Of a DNA stretch of 33,192 bases, positions 24,355-33,192 are shown piece by piece (position 1 is the first letter of the stretch; each line of letters starts with the position of its first letter). Position numbers and translations under genes: made by a program. Origin of the DNA: Chloroflexaceae bacterium (GTDB lineage Bacteria; Chloroflexota; Chloroflexia; Chloroflexales; Chloroflexaceae). Where the stretch lies: the NCBI GenBank assembly GCA_028282325.1, contig JANQID010000076.1, positions 1 through 33,192 on the forward strand, read 5' to 3'. The notes beneath the pieces were generated by a model. The model was not told the origin of the DNA. It made no database searches and saw only the letters and a list, made by a program, of their open reading frames with translations.

Positions 24355-25080
24355 TTATATTGGGCTATAGGCCGGGATGTTCAATAATTCGGGCACGGTA
24401 ACGAACTCATACCCTTCAGCACGTAGCGCAGGGACAATATGGCTGATTGCCCGCGTTGTCTCTCGCTTTTCCCATTGACTTTGCATTGAAACGCCGTCGT
24501 GAAAAAGCAAGATCGAACCGGGCCGAGTATCTCTACGCGCTTTTTCTGCCATCAGCACGCCATCAGGTGCTGGCATTACCCAGTCTAAAGTGTAAACATC
24601 CCATCCTATAATATGGTAGTCGCGTTGAATGAGACGCGAAGCCTCCCATGGTGTGAGCCATCCCCACGGCGGTCGATACAAACGTGGTCGAGAACCGATG
24701 ACTTCGGTAATAACCCGCTCGCTCTCATCGATATGGCTACCATCATTGCCAGGCATAAGGCTTCCGCTACGGCGATGAAATTGCGAGTGATTTCCAATCA
24801 CATGACCTTTCTCAAACATGCGCCGAGTCAAATCCGGATGGCAGGAGACATTGAACCCTACACAGAAGAACGTACCTTTGACATTCATCGCATCCATCAC
24901 AGCAACCAACTCTTCGGTACAAGGCAGGCTTGGGCCATCGTCGAACGTCAATGCAATCTTGCGCTCTGTGCGCGGTCCACTATTGCGATAGTAGCCAAAA
25001 CCACCTACTGGAGGGCTAAGCAACAGATTACCACTTTGATTAATTGCTGTTCGTACGAGGTTCGCCACATTCAGCGTCAT
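24355..25080 (-). CDS. Polysaccharide deacetylase (NodB/CE4 fold), copy A
   Basis: A 241-aa CE4-type deacetylase that would remove N- or O-acetyl groups from a glycan, usually with a divalent metal. Motif 1 is TFDDGP (Asp47 base, Asp48 metal). Motif 2 is NHSQFH (His98 and His102, metal). Motif 3 is the YRPPWGWLTPWE segment, and motif 5 is LFHDG. No signal peptide or membrane anchor is evident: the N-terminus (MTLNVANLVRTAINQ) is polar, so a cytoplasmic location is inferred. It is roughly 60% identical by eye to the second deacetylase at 26477. It starts 27 bases after its partner glycosyltransferase, with a weak AAGGG upstream, and is the last gene of the glycan operon. Confidence 0.9.
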   Translation of the reverse strand: MTLNVANLVRTAINQSGNLLLSPPVGGFGYYRNSGPRTERKIALTFDDGPSLPCTEELVAVMDAMNVKGTFFCVGFNVSCHPDLTRRMFEKGHVIGNHSQFHRRSGSLMPGNDGSHIDESERVITEVIGSRPRLYRPPWGWLTPWEASRLIQRDYHIIGWDVYTLDWVMPAPDGVLMAEKARRDTRPGSILLFHDGVSMQSQWEKRETTRAISHIVPALRAEGYEFVTVPELLNIPAYSPI

Positions 25081-25107
25081 TGGAGATAAGCCCTTCTATG
25101 TTAATCA

Positions 25108-26298
25108 TCAGTGCTGCGAAGCTGAAGCAACAGTGCCTGTGCGCCGACCGCCCCCCCGTAGACCTTCCAGATAAATTGTGCCAAGTTTCTGGGCTACGTA
25201 CTGCGCTGAAAAATGATCCCTGATCCGACGGTATGCTCCTTCACTTAACGACTGCTGAAGATCAGGGTTCTGAAAAATTTGGATGACGTATTTCGCAATT
25301 GATTCCGAGTCGCGCGGCTCGGCCCAAAAACCGCTTTCGCCAGGAACAACTGCTTCACCTTTACCACCAAAAGTGATGATAGATGGGAGACGCATCGCCA
25401 TAGCTTCCAACAACCCGATCGATGCTGAGCCAAATGGAACTGGCAACACAAAAACGTCCATCAAGCCATAGTAAGGGCGTGGATCAGATTGAAAGCCGGC
25501 GAAATGCACATATTCGCTCAGACCAAGGTTGGACGCCTGCTGTTCGAGAGCGCCGCGGAGCGAACCATCCCCTACGAGCAGTAGATGTGCATGCGGGCAT
25601 GCGGCACGGATTGACGGCATAGCGTCAACGAGGTAGTTAAGACCCTTTCCAGGCTCGAAGCGAACCGCTGTTCCGACAATCTGCGCATCACTGGGAAGAT
25701 TATGCTGTTGGCGAAGTGGAGTCAGTTGCTGCTCTGGTATCGGTTGAAAGTCATCCATATCGATGCCGTTGTTCACGACGAAAGATCGTTCTGGCGGCGT
25801 ATAGAGAAACTGTGAGCGTGACAGGTAATTCTTCTCCGACACACAGACAAACCCATCAAGCATACGGGTGAAGATATTGCGTACAACTCGCTGCTGAAAC
25901 GGAACTGGCTCCTCAGGTGCAAGATGTTCTGTCACATAGACACTGTAGACTCCAGCTAGTTTGGCTGCCAATAATATAAAGTTCTGACCTAAGTAGGCTC
26001 CATTGTGCATATGCATAACCTGGATACGCCAATCTCGTATCTGCTTAATAAGCCTGGAAAGACTGCTAAACTGATAGCCAATAGGCAGCGCCGCAAAGTG
26101 ATCGCTCTCTTGAGCGATTGACCTGGCAAATGCAGAAACAGAGTCAAAGTCCTGACATATAGAAAATACCTCAAAGTTCTCACGGTTGAGATGGCGAGCC
26201 AGCAACTTCATATGCATTTCCATACCACCCTCGAGCCCGCCCTTAAGCTGTGAATTCGACAAGAGGAGAACCCGAACATTGTCTGCTCGCGCGGTCAT
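25108..26298 (-). CDS. Family 4 glycosyltransferase, copy A
   Basis: A 396-aa GT-B fold retaining glycosyltransferase (GT4). The N-terminal Rossmann domain has a glycine-rich loop (GGLEGGMEMH). The MHMHNGAYLGQN segment and the VVNNGID linker are typical. Donor phosphate contacts are expected at Arg213 and Lys218 (VRFEPGKGL). In the usual EX7E motif only the second Glu (Glu298, LLEAMAM) is present. The first is Gly290 (FGSASIGLLE). It is soluble or peripheral and probably extends a lipid-linked glycan. ATG 26298 has AAGGAG eight bases upstream. A 178-base gap, with no gene and no clear promoter, separates it from the copy B deacetylase upstream. It is paired with the copy A deacetylase downstream. 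Confidence 0.9.
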   Translation of the reverse strand: MTARADNVRVLLLSNSQLKGGLEGGMEMHMKLLARHLNRENFEVFSICQDFDSVSAFARSIAQESDHFAALPIGYQFSSLSRLIKQIRDWRIQVMHMHNGAYLGQNFILLAAKLAGVYSVYVTEHLAPEEPVPFQQRVVRNIFTRMLDGFVCVSEKNYLSRSQFLYTPPERSFVVNNGIDMDDFQPIPEQQLTPLRQQHNLPSDAQIVGTAVRFEPGKGLNYLVDAMPSIRAACPHAHLLLVGDGSLRGALEQQASNLGLSEYVHFAGFQSDPRPYYGLMDVFVLPVPFGSASIGLLEAMAMRLPSIITFGGKGEAVVPGESGFWAEPRDSESIAKYVIQIFQNPDLQQSLSEGAYRRIRDHFSAQYVAQKLGTIYLEGLRGGGRRTGTVASASQH

Positions 26299-26476
26299 TA
26301 GTGCTGCTCCTTACAACTCATATCCCCATCTCACAGCCGCCGTCAGCTATGTTCTCGCTGATGGTTTCGTCACCGATTACCCGAAACCAGCTATTCGGTG
26401 CTGCTCAGCCATTGTCGCCATGTGTGATGATCGACGCCTTTCCAGCACGATATAATCATCTACGTACCATCGCTCG

Positions 26477-27205
26477 CTACTTGCTAAGGTATGCGGGAAC
26501 ACCCAGCAGCTCAGCGACCGTAACAAATTCATAGCCCTCATCTCGCAGCATCGGTACGAGTTTTTCGATTGCGCGGCGGGTCTGCGTCTTAACCCAGGAT
26601 TTCTCCCAGGGTTTGGCATCGTGGAAGCACATGATCGAGCCAGGACGTGTGTCGCAGTAGGCGTCGCGGGCTAGAGTGTGACCATCCACCTCGGGGATAA
26701 CCCAATCGAGGGTATAGACGTCCCAACCGATGATCTTGTACCCTGCCTGCGTCAGCCGTTGGCCTTCCCAGGGCGTCAGCCACCCCCAAGGCGGACGATA
26801 AAAATGCGGCTTTACGCCGATTACTTCACGAATAGCTTGCTCACCCTCAAGAATATGCCGGATATCCGACCCCATCATCAATCCAGTTTTTCGGCTGTGC
26901 CAACCTGAGTGATTGCCAATGATATGGCCCTCGTTATACATCTGGAGAACCAAGTCTGGATGGTATTGAACATTTACGCCAAGACAGAAAAAAGTCCCTT
27001 TCACATCAATCTTACGCATAGCTTCAAGCAGATGTTCTGTAGCTGGACGGCTCGGCCCGTCATCAAAGGTGAGAGCCACTTTCCGTTTATCACGTGGACC
27101 GTGATTAATGAAATAGCCAAAACCTCCAATCGGCGGACTTAGCAATTTAGTACCAACAGTATCAAATGCTTTGACAGCAAGCTGCTTCACGTTCAAGCTG
27201 CTCAT
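26477..27205 (-). CDS. Polysaccharide deacetylase (NodB/CE4 fold), copy B
   Basis: A 242-aa CE4 deacetylase, paralogue of the gene at 24355. It has TFDDGP (Asp48-Asp49), NHSGWH metal histidines (His99, His103), the same YRPPWGWLTPWE and GWDVYTLDWV segments, and FHDA at motif 5 where copy A has FHDG. No signal peptide is seen. ATG 27205 gives a length and N-terminus matching copy A (242 against 241 aa). The frame runs open to a TTG at 27250, but with no ribosome binding site there. It lies 56 bases after the copy B glycosyltransferase. Confidence 0.9.
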   Translation of the reverse strand: MSSLNVKQLAVKAFDTVGTKLLSPPIGGFGYFINHGPRDKRKVALTFDDGPSRPATEHLLEAMRKIDVKGTFFCLGVNVQYHPDLVLQMYNEGHIIGNHSGWHSRKTGLMMGSDIRHILEGEQAIREVIGVKPHFYRPPWGWLTPWEGQRLTQAGYKIIGWDVYTLDWVIPEVDGHTLARDAYCDTRPGSIMCFHDAKPWEKSWVKTQTRRAIEKLVPMLRDEGYEFVTVAELLGVPAYLSK

Positions 27206-27261
27206 ATTATAGATAACCTTACGATACAAATTGGTTGTTAGATTCAGCAAACCAGGAGCTG

Positions 27262-28491
27262 CTAACGCACGTTGTCATATCCCTGCCGATACACATTCCC
27301 TAGTTTGCAAGCAACCCCCTGCGCCGAGAATTCTTCCTCAACGCGACGGCGTGCCGCCTCGCCGAGGATATGCTGAAGATCTGGGTTCTGCAAAATAGTG
27401 GTCACAAAATGGGCTATTGACTCTGGGTTACGCGGCTCGGCGCAGAATCCACTCTCGCCGTGAACGACCGCCTCACCCTTACCGCCAAAGGTTATGACAA
27501 CAGCACGCCCCATAGCCATAGCTTCCAGCAACCCAATCGACATTGAACCAACAGGGACTGGCAATACGAAAGCATCTATCAACCCAAGGAAGGGACGCGG
27601 GTCGCTCTGAAAACCGGTAAAACGAACATAATCGCCAATTCCCAGTATCTGTGCTTGCTGTTCGAGATCGGCACGTAAGGAACCATCGCCTACCATCAAC
27701 AGATACGCGTTTGGACAGGCAACACGAATTGTTGGAAAAGCATTCATTAAGTCATGAAGACCTTTTTCCGGTTCAAAACGTACCACTGTACCAACGATCT
27801 GAGCATCAGGCGGGATCTCGTACTGGCGACGAAGCTCAGACAGATGAGCATCTGCAATTGGCGTAAACTCTTCCACATCAACGCCATTGTTCACGACAAA
27901 TGTACGGTCGTGCGGCGTATAGATATGCAACGCCCGCGCACGATAATTTTTTTCTGAAACGCAAACGATGCCATCGACCATACGGCTAAACAGGTCGCGC
28001 GATAGACGTTCAAAAAATGGGAGTGCAGCATCCGGAGCAAGATGTTCAGTAACATAAATGCGCCCCACGCCAGCCAAACGCGCCACAAGAAATGCCAATG
28101 TTTGTCCGCGATAGGTCGTCGAATGCATATGCATAACTTGAATGCGCCATTTTCGCAGTTGCCTAAAGAAACGAAGGGTTTCGGCAAACTGCTTCCATCT
28201 ACCATGGCGCCGATCCGGCGTTATGTTCACCGCATGATCAACAACCAACCTAAATGCTTGACTGAATTTCTCAGTCGGTTCCCAGTCTGGGCAGATGCCA
28301 AAGACCTCGAATTTCTCGCGATCAAGATGGCGGCCCAGCAACTCAACATGCTCTTCCATCCCACCAACCGCAACACTATTTGCGAAGAGCAACACACGAA
28401 TACGATCTGCCGTATTGAATGCAGATTCGCTGTTGATCTGAGTTCTCACAGACTGGCTCTGGGGAACTAGAACATGCGTCATACGTTGCAA
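27262..28491 (-). CDS. Family 4 glycosyltransferase, copy B
   Basis: A 409-aa GT4 glycosyltransferase, clear paralogue of the gene at 25108 along its whole length. Shared strings include VRFEP-x-KGL, GFQSDPRP and ITFGGKGEAVV. Donor contacts are expected at Arg238 and Lys243. The EX7E first Glu is again Gly (Gly315), with Glu323 kept. The N-terminus is about 24 residues longer than copy A and polar. TTG 28491 has AAGGGG eight bases upstream and is preferred. ATG 28482, three codons later, is the alternative but lies 17 bases from that site. It follows the DegT aminotransferase gene by 34 bases and precedes deacetylase copy B. Confidence 0.9.
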   Translation of the reverse strand: MQRMTHVLVPQSQSVRTQINSESAFNTADRIRVLLFANSVAVGGMEEHVELLGRHLDREKFEVFGICPDWEPTEKFSQAFRLVVDHAVNITPDRRHGRWKQFAETLRFFRQLRKWRIQVMHMHSTTYRGQTLAFLVARLAGVGRIYVTEHLAPDAALPFFERLSRDLFSRMVDGIVCVSEKNYRARALHIYTPHDRTFVVNNGVDVEEFTPIADAHLSELRRQYEIPPDAQIVGTVVRFEPEKGLHDLMNAFPTIRVACPNAYLLMVGDGSLRADLEQQAQILGIGDYVRFTGFQSDPRPFLGLIDAFVLPVPVGSMSIGLLEAMAMGRAVVITFGGKGEAVVHGESGFCAEPRNPESIAHFVTTILQNPDLQHILGEAARRRVEEEFSAQGVACKLGNVYRQGYDNVR

Positions 28492-28525: not shown

Positions 28526-29686
28526 CTATGCGCGACAAGCTACCCGCAAAGCCTCACATACATAATCCTGCTCTTCAACACTCATCTGCGGGTAGAGCGG
28601 CAGAATGATATGCCGATCCTGCGCATACTCTGATATGGGTAGATTGTAGCCGCCGGCACGCTGGTAGGGCTGTTCACGATGGGCATTCATAATACCGCGC
28701 CGGGTAGCGATACCCCGATCAAGCATCGCTTGCATCACCGCACGCTGGTCGCTCCATTCCGGCAGACGCACCCAGAAACTCTGCCAGTTGGTCCGCGCCC
28801 ACTCTGGATCAAGCGGAAGAAACAACCCCGGTACATCTGCCAACAACTCCTGATAGCGCGCCGTAAGCCGCCGTCGGGTGGCGACGATATCAGGCAATCG
28901 CTTGAGTTGTTCACGCCCCACAGCAGCTTGAATGTCAGTCATACGGTAGTTGTAGCCCAGCACTGCGTGCTCCTCAAAGACAACCTGCTGCGTCCCATGC
29001 CGCACCCGATCACTAACGCTCATACCATGCTGGCGCAACAAGCGGAACTGCGCATCATACTGGGCGTTATTGGTGGTAAGCATCCCGCCGTCGCCCGTGC
29101 TGATGACCTTGCGCGGATGGAATGAGAAACAGGCAATGTCACCGAGCGGACGACCAATAGTTTGCCATTCCCCTTGCCAATGAATCGTGCTACCTATAGC
29201 ACAGGCCGCATCCTCAATAACTGGCAGATTGTGTCGTTGCGTTACATCCAGAATAGCAGCCATATCACAGGGCATCCCCATTTGATGCACTGTCAACACC
29301 GCCTGTGTTCGTGGTGACACCGCCGCTTCGATCAGAGTTGGGTTGATGTTGCCCGTATCTGCCGTAATATCAACGAAGACCGGCTCAGCACCGCAATAGC
29401 GTATACTATTGGCGGTCGCGATATATGAATGGCTGACGGTGATAACCTCGTCGCCGGGCTGAACGCCAACCGCTAGTAGCGCGAGATGTAGCGCAGTTGT
29501 GCAACTCGACACAGCGCAGGCATGCTCAGCGCCAGCGTAAGCCGCGAATTCCTGCTCGAAGGCTGCAACTTCAGGACCCTGCGTTACCCAACCCGATATG
29601 ATCGGGCGACGCGCAGCCTCGGCTTCAGACTCGCCCATCAACGGGCGAGTCAGTGGAATGTTGCGGGCAGGCGTCTCATTGCTCAT
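28526..29686 (-). CDS. DegT/DnrJ/EryC1/StrS sugar aminotransferase, first
   Basis: A 387-aa PLP enzyme of the sugar aminotransferase family, which transfers an amino group from Glu or Gln to a nucleotide-linked keto sugar. PLP lysine Lys193 lies in FSFHPRKVISTGDGG. Asp159 in VIEDAACAIGS pairs with the pyridine nitrogen. The phosphate-binding SSCTTALHLALLA segment and the opening IPLTRPLMGESE (compare the IPLSRP start of many family members) fit. ATG 29686 forms an ATGA overlap with the stop of the upstream epimerase gene and has GGGAG about eight bases before it. It is only distantly related to the other DegT gene in this operon, so it probably acts on a different sugar or position. Confidence 0.92.
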   Translation of the reverse strand: MSNETPARNIPLTRPLMGESEAEAARRPIISGWVTQGPEVAAFEQEFAAYAGAEHACAVSSCTTALHLALLAVGVQPGDEVITVSHSYIATANSIRYCGAEPVFVDITADTGNINPTLIEAAVSPRTQAVLTVHQMGMPCDMAAILDVTQRHNLPVIEDAACAIGSTIHWQGEWQTIGRPLGDIACFSFHPRKVISTGDGGMLTTNNAQYDAQFRLLRQHGMSVSDRVRHGTQQVVFEEHAVLGYNYRMTDIQAAVGREQLKRLPDIVATRRRLTARYQELLADVPGLFLPLDPEWARTNWQSFWVRLPEWSDQRAVMQAMLDRGIATRRGIMNAHREQPYQRAGGYNLPISEYAQDRHIILPLYPQMSVEEQDYVCEALRVACRA

Positions 29687-30666
29687 ACAGCCACTCCCTT
29701 CTGCGCGCGCCACCAGGCAACGAGATCGCGCAGGCCTTGCTCAAGATCAACCTGAGCTGCAAAGCCAATCATCTCACGAGCCTTGCTTGTATCTGCCAGT
29801 CGCCGCGGCACCGGGTTCACTTTTCGCTCCGGTCCGTATTCTGGCTGCAGATCTGATCCCATCACACGCAGCAATGCGTAAGCCAGATCGTTCAGGCTCG
29901 TCTCAACTCCGCTGGCTACATTAAATGCCTCATCATTCACGTCAGCCTTCGCTGCGAGGATGTTTGCACGCGCAATGTCGGCAACATGAACGAAGTCCAT
30001 CGTCTGCTTGCCATCACCAAAGATGAGCGGCGGTTCGCCGGCAATGATGCGATCCATCCAGCGAATCAGCACTTCGGTATATGCTCCGTAAATATCCATC
30101 CGCGGCCCATAGACGTTGAAATACCGCAGCGCCACATAATTTAGTCCGTACATTTCGTTGAAGCTGCGCAACAGACCCTCGTTGAATGCCTTCAACGCGC
30201 CATAGAGCGTACGGTTATTGTAGGAGTGCTGGCGCTCGGTGGTTGGAAGCTCGTCAGCCAGACCATAGACCGAAGCTGATGATGATGCAATGACCTTCTT
30301 CACACCCGCCTGTACCGCAGCATCCAACACATTAAATGTGCCGTTACCCAATACGTCCATCGCCAGGCGCGGCTCTTCGGCACACTGGGTGATGCGAATT
30401 GCCGCCAGGTGGAAAACCAGGTCAATATCTTGCATAACTTCGGACAACAGTTCCCGGTCGCGAATATCGCCCTCAATCAATTTGATCGGGCCACGTTCCA
30501 TAGCGCCGGCCAGGTTTTCCACCCGACCGCGTATAAAGTTATCCAGGACAATGATATCGCTGTACTTGCCCTGCTCTTGGCCGTCCATCAGCAGATCGAC
30601 GATATGCGATCCGATTAAGCCGGCGCCGCCAGTGAGCAGCACGCGTCGCGGAAGGGTATCGTTCAC
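29683..30666 (-). CDS. NAD-dependent nucleotide-sugar epimerase/dehydratase (extended SDR)
   Basis: A 327-aa extended short-chain dehydrogenase. The NAD-binding TGGAGLIGS (Gly13, Gly16, Gly19) and the IVLDNF and EGDIRD segments are clear. The catalytic residues are Ser131 or a neighbour in ASSSASVYG, and Tyr155/Lys159 (YGALK). RYFNVYGPRMD and IFGDGKQTMDFVHV are typical of UDP-glucose/UDP-GlcNAc 4-epimerase or 4,6-dehydratase-like enzymes. The exact reaction is not decided by sequence alone. The GTG start has AAGGAGG six bases upstream. It is translationally coupled to the following aminotransferase, which suggests the two act in sequence on one nucleotide sugar. Confidence 0.9.
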   Translation of the reverse strand: MNDTLPRRVLLTGGAGLIGSHIVDLLMDGQEQGKYSDIIVLDNFIRGRVENLAGAMERGPIKLIEGDIRDRELLSEVMQDIDLVFHLAAIRITQCAEEPRLAMDVLGNGTFNVLDAAVQAGVKKVIASSSASVYGLADELPTTERQHSYNNRTLYGALKAFNEGLLRSFNEMYGLNYVALRYFNVYGPRMDIYGAYTEVLIRWMDRIIAGEPPLIFGDGKQTMDFVHVADIARANILAAKADVNDEAFNVASGVETSLNDLAYALLRVMGSDLQPEYGPERKVNPVPRRLADTSKAREMIGFAAQVDLEQGLRDLVAWWRAQKGVAV

Positions 30667-30724: not shown

Positions 30725-31843
30725 CTACGGTTTCACTGTCGGTTCGCGTTCCACCCAGGCGCGCAGCGCTTCCGCTACCTGATCCTGCTGATCGGGACGC
30801 AGTTCCGGGAACATTGGCAAGGAAAGAACTTCGTTTGCGGCCTGCTCGGAATGCGGGAAATCGCCGGCTTTATACCCCAGTTCGGCAAATGCTTTCTGGA
30901 GATGCACCGGGACGGGATAGTGAATACCTGTACTCACGCCGCGCTCTTGCAGGAACGGCTGTAATAGCTCACGCTCGTTGGTGCGGATGGCATAGACGTG
31001 ATAGACATGGCGACGCTCTGGAAATGCGGCAGGAAGCGGAATGCCTGTATCGGCCAATAGCGTGTTGTAGTAGGCTGCATGGGTGCGGCGCGCTTCGGTC
31101 CACTCCTCGATATATTTCATCTTCACACCCAAAACCGCGCCCTGGACGCCTTCCATCCGATAGTTGAAGCCCTTGAGATCGTGGTAATACTTGCGCTCAG
31201 CGCCCCAGTCGCGCAGCATCCTCACGATACGTGCCATCTCAGAGTTACTGGTTGTTACTGCTCCGCCCTCACCATAAGCGCCGAGATTCTTGCCTGGATA
31301 AAAACTGAAACATCCCAGATCGCCCATACTGCCGGCGCGACGGCCCTTATACTCGGCGCCATGAGCCTGGGCCGCGTCTTCAATCACGACCAGGCCATGA
31401 CGTCGTGCAATTTCCAGAATTGGATCCATATCGGCGGGCTGGCCATAGAGATGCACCGGTATAATCGCCTTCGTGCGCGGCGTGATCGCCGCCTCGATCA
31501 ACGCTGGATCGATAGTGAACGAAATGGGATCGATATCGACAAAGACCGGACGCGCACCGGTATAATCGATCGCTGAAACTGTCGCGATAAAGGTAAACGG
31601 CGTCGTAATTACTTCGTCATTGGGGCCAACGCCAGCAGCAAGCAATGCGAGATGCAAAGCGCTGGTGCCTGAATTCACGCCGATAGCCTGATCAGCCTGA
31701 CAATAGGAGGCAAACTTCCCCTCAAAAGCCGCCACTTCACGTCCGAGAACAAACTGCGTGCTCCCCAGCGTGCGTAGCACTGCTGCATCAATTTCGTCTT
31801 TAATTGCCAGATACTGGGTTTTAAGATCAACAAAGGGGATCAT
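30725..31843 (-). CDS. DegT/DnrJ/EryC1/StrS sugar aminotransferase, second (WbpE/WlbC-like)
   Basis: A 372-aa PLP aminotransferase beginning IPFVDLKTQY. PLP Lys185 lies in FYPGKNLGAYGEGG and Asp156 in VIEDAAQAHGAEYKGR. The NSGTSALHLAL phosphate loop is present. The N-terminal signature and the GKNLGAYGEGG loop are typical of enzymes making 3-amino sugars (WbpE/WlbC, FdtB and QdtB groups). With the adjacent Gfo/Idh oxidoreductase it recalls the WbpB-WbpE pair that makes UDP-GlcNAc(3NH2)A. That specific product is an inference. ATG 31843 has GAGGAG about eight bases upstream. The open frame continues to 32137, but those residues are unrelated to the family. Confidence 0.92.
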   Translation of the reverse strand: MIPFVDLKTQYLAIKDEIDAAVLRTLGSTQFVLGREVAAFEGKFASYCQADQAIGVNSGTSALHLALLAAGVGPNDEVITTPFTFIATVSAIDYTGARPVFVDIDPISFTIDPALIEAAITPRTKAIIPVHLYGQPADMDPILEIARRHGLVVIEDAAQAHGAEYKGRRAGSMGDLGCFSFYPGKNLGAYGEGGAVTTSNSEMARIVRMLRDWGAERKYYHDLKGFNYRMEGVQGAVLGVKMKYIEEWTEARRTHAAYYNTLLADTGIPLPAAFPERRHVYHVYAIRTNERELLQPFLQERGVSTGIHYPVPVHLQKAFAELGYKAGDFPHSEQAANEVLSLPMFPELRPDQQDQVAEALRAWVEREPTVKP

Positions 31844-31910: not shown

Positions 31911-32921
31911 TTACGAGATCTCCACCGGCTGGCCATGGTTTGCCATGGAGCGCGTAGCCGCCTCCAGGATACGAATGACTCGCAACCCAGCCTGGCCATC
32001 AGAAAGAGGACGCCGATTGTTGTTGACACAGTCAACAAAATGCTCAGCTTCGATCTTGAGCGCTTCAACGTTGTCCAGACGCGGCGCCCACATATCTCCG
32101 GTGCGATAACCGACGTGGCGCTGATACACAGCTTCATCGGCGTCGCTTACGATAATGCCTTTGTCATAGACCTTAATCTTCTCACTCATCTCGATATCGT
32201 CATAGACGATCATCTTCTCAGAGCCGCCAACCAACGTCTGGCGCACTTTCACCGGTGCGAGCCAGTTAACGTGAAAGTGAGCAATCAGGTTATTGTCAAA
32301 GAAGCACGTGAGGTACGCCATATTCTCCGGTCGCCCTGACACATGCGCCATACCGGTGGCCGCGATCATCTTCGGACTACGCTCAACCAGGTAGTCCATA
32401 ATCGACAGATCATGGACGGCTAGATCCCACAACACACTGACATCGCTCTGAAACAGACCCAGGTTGACGCGAACGGAGTCATAGTAGTAGAGGTCACCGA
32501 TCGCACCGCTCGTCACCAGATCTTTGATCTTGCGCACTGCGCTGGTATAGATGAACGTATGGTCAACCATTAGCACACGCTGGCGTCGTTCGGCTTCCTC
32601 AACGAGACGCTCAGCCTGTTCGACAGTTGAAGCAAACGGTTTCTCGACAAGCACATGCCTTCCGGACTGGAGCGCCTGCAAAGCTAGCTCGTAATGCGAG
32701 AGCACCGGCGTAGCGACGACAACCGCATCAACAGCAGGGCTATCCAACATTTCGCTTACTTCGGCATACGTTACGACTGACGGATAGATCTGCTCCACTT
32801 TTGCACGACGTTCAGGGCGTTGATCACAAACCGCAACCACTCGCGCCCCATCGACTTGCGCGAAGTTGCGCACCAGATTCGGCCCCCAGTAGCCATAGCC
32901 AATGACACCGATTCCTATCAT
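31911..32921 (-). CDS. Gfo/Idh/MocA family oxidoreductase (WbpB/WlbA-like)
   Basis: A 336-aa NAD(P)-dependent oxidoreductase. The N-terminal Rossmann fold is GVIGYGYWGPN. The cofactor/catalytic loop is EKPFAS with Lys94, and LWDLAVHDLSIMDYL carries the conserved HD pair of the C-terminal domain. Its placement directly before a DegT aminotransferase suggests it oxidises a nucleotide sugar (for example C3 of a UDP-sugar acid) to the keto form the next enzyme aminates. ATG 32921 has GGAAGG about eight bases upstream. GTG 32939 is possible but overlaps that site. It is the first gene of the eight-gene glycan operon; the next gene begins 67 bases downstream. Confidence 0.92.
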   Translation of the reverse strand: MIGIGVIGYGYWGPNLVRNFAQVDGARVVAVCDQRPERRAKVEQIYPSVVTYAEVSEMLDSPAVDAVVVATPVLSHYELALQALQSGRHVLVEKPFASTVEQAERLVEEAERRQRVLMVDHTFIYTSAVRKIKDLVTSGAIGDLYYYDSVRVNLGLFQSDVSVLWDLAVHDLSIMDYLVERSPKMIAATGMAHVSGRPENMAYLTCFFDNNLIAHFHVNWLAPVKVRQTLVGGSEKMIVYDDIEMSEKIKVYDKGIIVSDADEAVYQRHVGYRTGDMWAPRLDNVEALKIEAEHFVDCVNNNRRPLSDGQAGLRVIRILEAATRSMANHGQPVEIS

Positions 32922-33036
32922 TGCTGCACCTTCCTGCACACTAATTCGACCAGGGTATAGAATGGTCGAGTTGCCTTATCCTCTCTGCACCGTAATATTG
33001 GCTGTTGAATAACGTGTGATACTATTACGAGAAGAA

Positions 33037-33086: not shown

Positions 33087-33183
33087 CCAAACAATAATGA
33101 ACAGGCCGCATGTCACCCTGAGCGGAGCGAAGGGTCTCAGCGTTCCCGACAGCCGGGATTCTTCGCTGCGCTCAGAATGACCG
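33087..33183 (-). repeat. Dispersed palindromic repeat, copy 3 (inverted)
   Basis: Read on the minus strand, it matches 1-97 at 94 of 97 bases, including the spacer and the outer GCCTGTTCATTAT tail beyond the hairpin arms. Copies 1 and 3 are thus far closer to each other than to copy 2. The match stops at both ends within a base or two, which defines the element borders. Confidence 0.85.
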
Positions 33184-33192
33184 CTTGCGGTA

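Follow-up and report, generated by a model that had tools for sequence, protein, structure and literature searches.

Two diverged glycosyltransferase-deacetylase cassettes at the end of an amino-sugar operon in a Chloroflexaceae bacterium

Introduction

What does it mean when a glycan operon carries the same kind of gene pair, a glycosyltransferase followed by a deacetylase, twice in a row? Two such pairs, here called cassettes B and A, are found in a Chloroflexaceae bacterium that has Oscillochloris, Chloroploca, Viridilinea and Chloroflexus among its relatives. The window, that is, the whole stretch of DNA analysed (33,192 nucleotides), is a complete contig (C106) of a 4.6-Mb genome, which is 99.98% complete. 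An earlier note on this DNA had described the pairs as a tandem duplication of one cassette, in which each glycosyltransferase would add a sugar that the neighbouring deacetylase then unmasks.

Results

Layout of the operon

The operon is transcribed from the minus strand. In the direction of transcription, a Gfo/Idh gene, a DegT gene, an epimerase/dehydratase gene and a second DegT gene are followed by GT_B, CE4_B, a spacer, GT_A and CE4_A. The two glycosyltransferase (GT)-CE4 cassettes thus form the end of an amino-sugar operon, and all four of their genes are intact. As the earlier note had stated, the two pairs are adjacent and share order and strand, with open reading frames at the positions below and Pfam domains confirming them.

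31911..32939, minus strand: Gfo/Idh/MocA sugar-nucleotide oxidoreductase, first operon gene on the contig; its family (F5) is conserved in 17 related loci
30725..31828, minus strand: first DegT/DnrJ/EryC1 aminotransferase, by domain and nearest solved structures
29683..30666, minus strand: NAD-dependent nucleotide-sugar epimerase/dehydratase (GalE/WbpP-like), by domain, curated-profile and structure matches
28526..29713, minus strand: second DegT aminotransferase; nearest solved relatives are ArnB and perosamine synthase, with ArnB the closest
27262..28491, minus strand: GT_B, GT4-family glycosyltransferase of cassette B, by Pfam, tree and fold model; start codon uncertain (TTG listed)
26477..27250, minus strand: CE4_B, CE4 deacetylase of cassette B, by Pfam, catalytic motifs, hydropathy and fold model
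26299..26476, no strand: 178-bp spacer between cassettes B and A, the junction of both modules
25108..26298, minus strand: GT_A, GT4-family glycosyltransferase of cassette A, by Pfam and tree; closest relative in the bin W4 (75%)
24355..25080, minus strand: CE4_A, CE4 deacetylase of cassette A and last operon gene, by Pfam, motifs and tree; closest relative in W4 (79%)

The best curated match of the Gfo/Idh/MocA protein is a UDP-GlcNAc 3-dehydrogenase, at a sub-threshold score. For the first DegT protein, the listed open reading frame extends to 32137 and overlaps the upstream gene, and the domain begins near 31805. Its nearest solved relatives include the 3-amino-sugar enzymes 2oga transaminase, QdtB and WbpE. 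Together with the closeness of the second DegT protein to ArnB, this indicates that the operon makes amino sugars.

Gaps of 11-34 bp separate each GT gene from its CE4 gene, and the upstream DegT gene from GT_B; the exception is the 178 bp between CE4_B and GT_A. This spacer has no similarity to the junctions of relatives past the end of the CE4 gene. Remnants of the genes found downstream in relatives (FemAB, GT2, acyltransferases) were sought in the spacer and after CE4_A, and none were found. Promoter and terminator scans returned sites no more numerous than in shuffled sequence. After CE4_A, the contig switches to housekeeping genes, for example those of an FtsW-like protein and of ArgS, and the G+C content is about 0.50-0.56 across the glycan region versus about 0.60 alongside.

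In many relatives a hexapeptide acyltransferase (F9) heads the operon. It is absent from the 250 bp left on the contig, and elsewhere the window genome has only a 47% homologue, which weighs against the masking step proposed below. The contig end upstream of the operon (33100-33192) resembles a palindromic intergenic repeat (GTCATTCTGAGCGCAGCGAAGAATC ... TTCGCTCCGCTCAGGGTGAC), which may have caused the assembly to break there. The FemAB gene (F8) and the acyltransferase F6 had no match elsewhere in the window genome at the thresholds used. The GT2 gene F11, which stands further down the operon in relatives, has a likely orthologue (61%) on another contig (C51, 8863-10838 of locus L109), where this orthologue adjoins a second GT2 gene. 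The ancestral glycan cluster seems to be split in the window genome.

Two diverged but intact enzyme pairs

The two copies are full-length paralogues, and the earlier estimate by eye of roughly 60% identity between the deacetylases was close to the mark: CE4_A and CE4_B are 59% identical over 237 positions, and GT_A and GT_B 57% over 381. At the nucleotide level, the two GT genes still align in blastn over 687 bases (68%, E 2e-64), the two CE4 genes over no more than 239 (63%, E 1e-5), so that the likeness is not due to chance and the copies are not an assembly duplicate. These two are the only close copies of each family in the window genome, the next GT (35%) and the next CE4 (33%) both matching over partial length.

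Both deacetylases match Polysacc_deac_1 (PF01522; E 5e-25 and 1.5e-27) and carry the full set of catalytic motifs (TFDDGP, NHSxxH, RPPWGW, D-W and FHD), with the Asp-His-His metal triad. The fold model of CE4_B (pLDDT 82) matches the CE4 enzyme Bc1960 of Bacillus, with a TM of 0.73-0.88. By domain, five motifs and fold, CE4_A and CE4_B are CE4 carbohydrate esterases.

GT_A and GT_B both carry the Pfam domains Glycos_transf_1 (PF00534) and Glyco_transf_4 (PF13439), and the nearest solved folds to the GT_B model (pLDDT 87) are the GT-B enzymes PimB', HepE, BshA and MshA. In all members of this GT4 family (16/16, from Chloroflexota and Actinomycetota), Gly replaces the first Glu of the EX7E motif (Gly314 in GT_B, alignment A1), and the second Glu is kept. 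The other GT4s of the window genome mostly keep the first Glu; the one at locus L003 has Asp. As some GT4s do without this otherwise typical motif, the assignment of GT_A and GT_B to GT4 by GT-B fold and domains stands. Activity cannot be assumed, since all GT4s of the family are without the first Glu. In PglH, this residue contacts the N-acetyl group of the donor, and the enzyme is about 300-fold slower without it (PMC5792488); in GnaT, its removal abolished activity (PMC12856342). The invariant Gly, as seen in the alignment, argues for an adapted enzyme rather than for decay, and perhaps the Gly-type GT4s accept an unusual donor.

Distribution in the order Chloroflexales

We surveyed 82 genomes of the order, accepting members of the GT4 family at E values up to 1e-60 and of the CE4 family up to 1e-45. 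The GT4 family was found in 10 and the CE4 family in 21 of the 82 genomes, and every genome with the GT4 also has the CE4. In 20 of these 21 the upstream gene was readable, and in all 20 the CE4 gene lies directly downstream of a GT gene on the same strand; the genome left out (G039) has the genes on different contigs, with the GT near a contig end. The gene before the CE4 is a GT2 in 11 of the 20, a GT4 of the window family in seven (the window genome included), and another GT4 in two, and in both of the latter that GT4 stands behind a family GT4.

Chloroploca and Chloroflexus share the conserved core Gfo/Idh - DegT - epimerase - DegT - GT - CE4, as does W4, where one extra GT2 gene stands ahead of the cassette. 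Chloroploca has a single GT4-CE4 pair at the same operon place, as do the available parts of the O. fontis and Viridilinea loci. In W4, a single GT4 precedes two CE4s; W4 is a Chloroflexales bin of 9.3 Mb with 7% contamination, so that it is not certain which host the A-type relative belongs to. Two complete cassettes occur only in the window genome among the 82.

The second CE4 of W4 (L039:8795-9517, JAAXUL010000008.1) comes immediately after the A-type CE4. Two of its three metal ligands are gone (TFDEGP, NNSxxH), but it is otherwise full length. Judged by these motifs, it is probably a CE4 pseudoenzyme beside an active relative. In the single-contig genome G006, a CE4 gene behind a GT2 gene (C1:2880232-2880669) contains an in-frame TAG that interrupts it. 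In Chloroploca and O. fontis, FemAB-like genes come after the CE4 (L036:8869-10884, L034, L023), and for the one tested, from Chloroploca, the sole NCBIfam match was TIGR03019, the XrtA-associated FemAB, below cut-off.

XrtA/PEP-CTERM exopolysaccharide loci combine a TIGR03088 glycosyltransferase, a TIGR03006 deacetylase and a TIGR03019 FemAB, and TIGR03088 is the best curated match of the window GT4s. Membership of the cassettes in this system was rejected, because all matches are below cut-off (38 and 34 bits for the CE4s on TIGR03006, cut-off 276) and the XrtA exosortase (TIGR03109) has no match in the window genome and none above cut-off in eight genomes. Literature searches on XrtA with FemAB and on Oscillochloris exopolysaccharide found nothing in the collection searched.

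GT and CE4 as a matched unit

Distances among the GTs follow those among their partner CE4s (Mantel r 0.84, with none of 10000 permutations as high), although sequence kinship inflates this statistic, and r falls to 0.64 when the partners in the window are swapped. A CE4 tree built from 20 Chloroflexota sequences requires a single change of partner type (GT4 or GT2), a count likewise favoured by kinship, whereas shuffled labels lead one to expect 6.5 changes (0 of 500 shuffles were as low). The branch dividing GT4- from GT2-partnered CE4s has a support of 93/89. We consider this split the best evidence that a GT and its CE4 form one functional unit. Among the Oscillochloris-named genomes, O. 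fontis is of the GT4 type and the others are of the GT2 type, which means that modules were replaced within a narrow lineage.

That a GT and a CE4 gene are neighbours is no proof that the CE4 acts on the sugar added by this GT. Co-regulation of a polysaccharide locus could be all that lies behind the gene order, with the CE4s acting on peptidoglycan or on the polymer once it is finished and exported. Among curated models and solved structures, both CE4s indeed match mostly peptidoglycan GlcNAc deacetylases best. However, all models for such deacetylases score far below their cut-offs (for NF045821, 121 and 125 bits versus 400), and the CE4 family members examined have neither a signal peptide nor a transmembrane helix, as judged by hydropathy, a weak test of location. 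The strict GT neighbourhood and the co-segregation with GT type also speak against action on a finished polymer, and we regard it as rather improbable.

Descent of cassettes A and B

In the GT tree, GT_A groups with W4 (support 100/100), and GT_B, weakly, with fontis/Chloroploca/Viridilinea (63/86). The CE4 tree places CE4_A with W4 (99/98) and CE4_B with O. fontis/Chloroploca/Viridilinea (100/100). Sisterhood of A and B was rejected by AU tests in both trees, the constraint costing 180 and 140 log-likelihood units. These tests, together with the low DNA identity, rule out a recent local duplication. Between genera of the family, ArgS proteins share 67-72% identity, compared with 57-59% between A and B, so that the A/B split looks older than those genera. 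As far as trees and identities can tell, cassettes A and B are two separately descended, distant modules that were brought together, and not fresh copies. The refutation criteria named in the earlier note thus give a divided answer. The local duplication is not supported, the copies being sisters in neither tree and no other genome of the order having two complete cassettes, while the GT-CE4 cassette as a unit holds up, its partners staying adjacent and co-segregating.

The trees alone would fit both the acquisition of a diverged module and an ancient tandem duplication with differential loss. In the latter case, the ancestor had B and A, most lineages kept only B, W4 kept only A, and the window would represent the ancestral state, with the cassettes functioning as in our preferred explanation. 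The age of the A/B split agrees with such a history, the A-W4 identities (75-79%) resemble those of vertically inherited genes, and both cassettes occupy the operon position of the cassette in single-cassette relatives. On the other hand, many independent losses of A would be needed, as the A type is present in two of the 10 genomes of the order with the GT4, the whole module was swapped for the other type within one genus, which favours exchange, and the G+C content of the glycan region differs from that nearby. An ancient duplication is possible but, in our opinion, doubtful, and we infer the acquisition of A rather than its loss elsewhere.

One of the cassettes might also be redundant or decaying, a dispensable backup with no specificity of its own. 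Decay is known in this family, namely in the second CE4 of W4 and in the TAG-interrupted CE4 of G006. In contrast, both window cassettes are full length, with all CE4 catalytic residues intact, and they descend from separate lineages, neither being a fresh copy of the other, so that redundancy or decay appears quite unlikely.

Discussion

The explanation that we favour, with moderate confidence, is that a conserved Chloroflexales glycan operon has one position at which a GT and a CE4 are passed on and exchanged together, as matched partners. There they would carry out an Arn-like step, adding a masked amino sugar to a cytoplasmic intermediate and then unmasking it, and this step would be doubled by a second, diverged module. 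Starting from the gene identities, intact motifs, adjacency, partner co-segregation and non-sister origin computed above, we infer a cytoplasmic location, a lipid-linked acceptor, an order of reactions and the sugars as follows. The nucleotide donors made by the operon would carry N-acetylated amino sugars, of one kind or several. The GT4 of each cassette would transfer an N-acetylated sugar, on the cytoplasmic side, to an acceptor that is still growing and probably lipid-linked, and the CE4 encoded next to it, also cytoplasmic, would then strip an acetyl group from the newly added residue, exposing an amine. The resident cassette B would have been joined by the anciently diverged cassette A, and with A beside B, the glycan most likely either receives two different sugars one after the other, each unmasked once added, or comes in two glycoforms. 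Two putative specificities and a repeated step are plausible.

Pairs of a glycosyltransferase and a deacylase comparable to the cassettes are already known, and the pairing is not unprecedented. They are built from various enzyme families: ArnC is a GT2-type enzyme and NodC a processive GT2, ArnD is a NodB-homology (CE4-like) enzyme, the deacetylases BshB and MshB belong to the LmbE/PIG-L family and not to CE4, and HpnI and HpnK belong to other enzyme families. The earlier note had called the pairing unusual on the grounds that deacetylases generally act on finished polymer; this view is too narrow, because de-N-acylation after glycosyl transfer, with the glycan still incomplete, is established in the following systems.

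In the Arn pathway, the DegT enzyme ArnB makes the amino sugar nucleotide, ArnC uses the N-acylated donor as its substrate and loads the sugar on a lipid carrier, and the deformylase ArnD unmasks it after transfer (PMC12748117). The Arn mask is a formyl group, and there is one sugar and one pair, whereas the window has GT4s, presumably an acetyl mask, and two diverged pairs. NodB, which follows NodC, is an intracellular CE4 of Nod-factor synthesis and works during glycan assembly (PMC5855634), but the window CE4s score well under the NodB cut-off (TIGR04243, 104 and 99 versus 240 bits). In bacillithiol and mycothiol synthesis, a GT4 (BshA or MshA, both among the nearest solved folds of GT_B) adds GlcNAc, and a later enzyme (BshB or MshB) deacetylates it (PMC4360819); unlike in our proposal, the acceptors are small molecules. 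For hopanoid glucosamine, HpnI puts GlcNAc on the lipid and the deacetylase HpnK follows (PMC12583986), although as a single pair.

More tentatively, the GT-CE4 pairs could be exchangeable specificity modules of a Chloroflexales surface glycan, each of which attaches an amino sugar in masked form and removes the mask inside the cell, a second module meaning a second unmasked position. The GT4s might, as a subfamily, have dropped the first Glu of EX7E, which contacts the donor sugar in PglH, possibly to accommodate a modified sugar, for example a 3-acetamido sugar.

A transferase and a deacetylase can pass as a matched pair, swapping as a unit in a glycan operon, even across unrelated GT folds. 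If sugars are indeed added and then unmasked, the positive charges of the surface glycan would be placed sugar by sugar during assembly and not once the polymer is complete. The number of cassettes would then predict how many amines are free.
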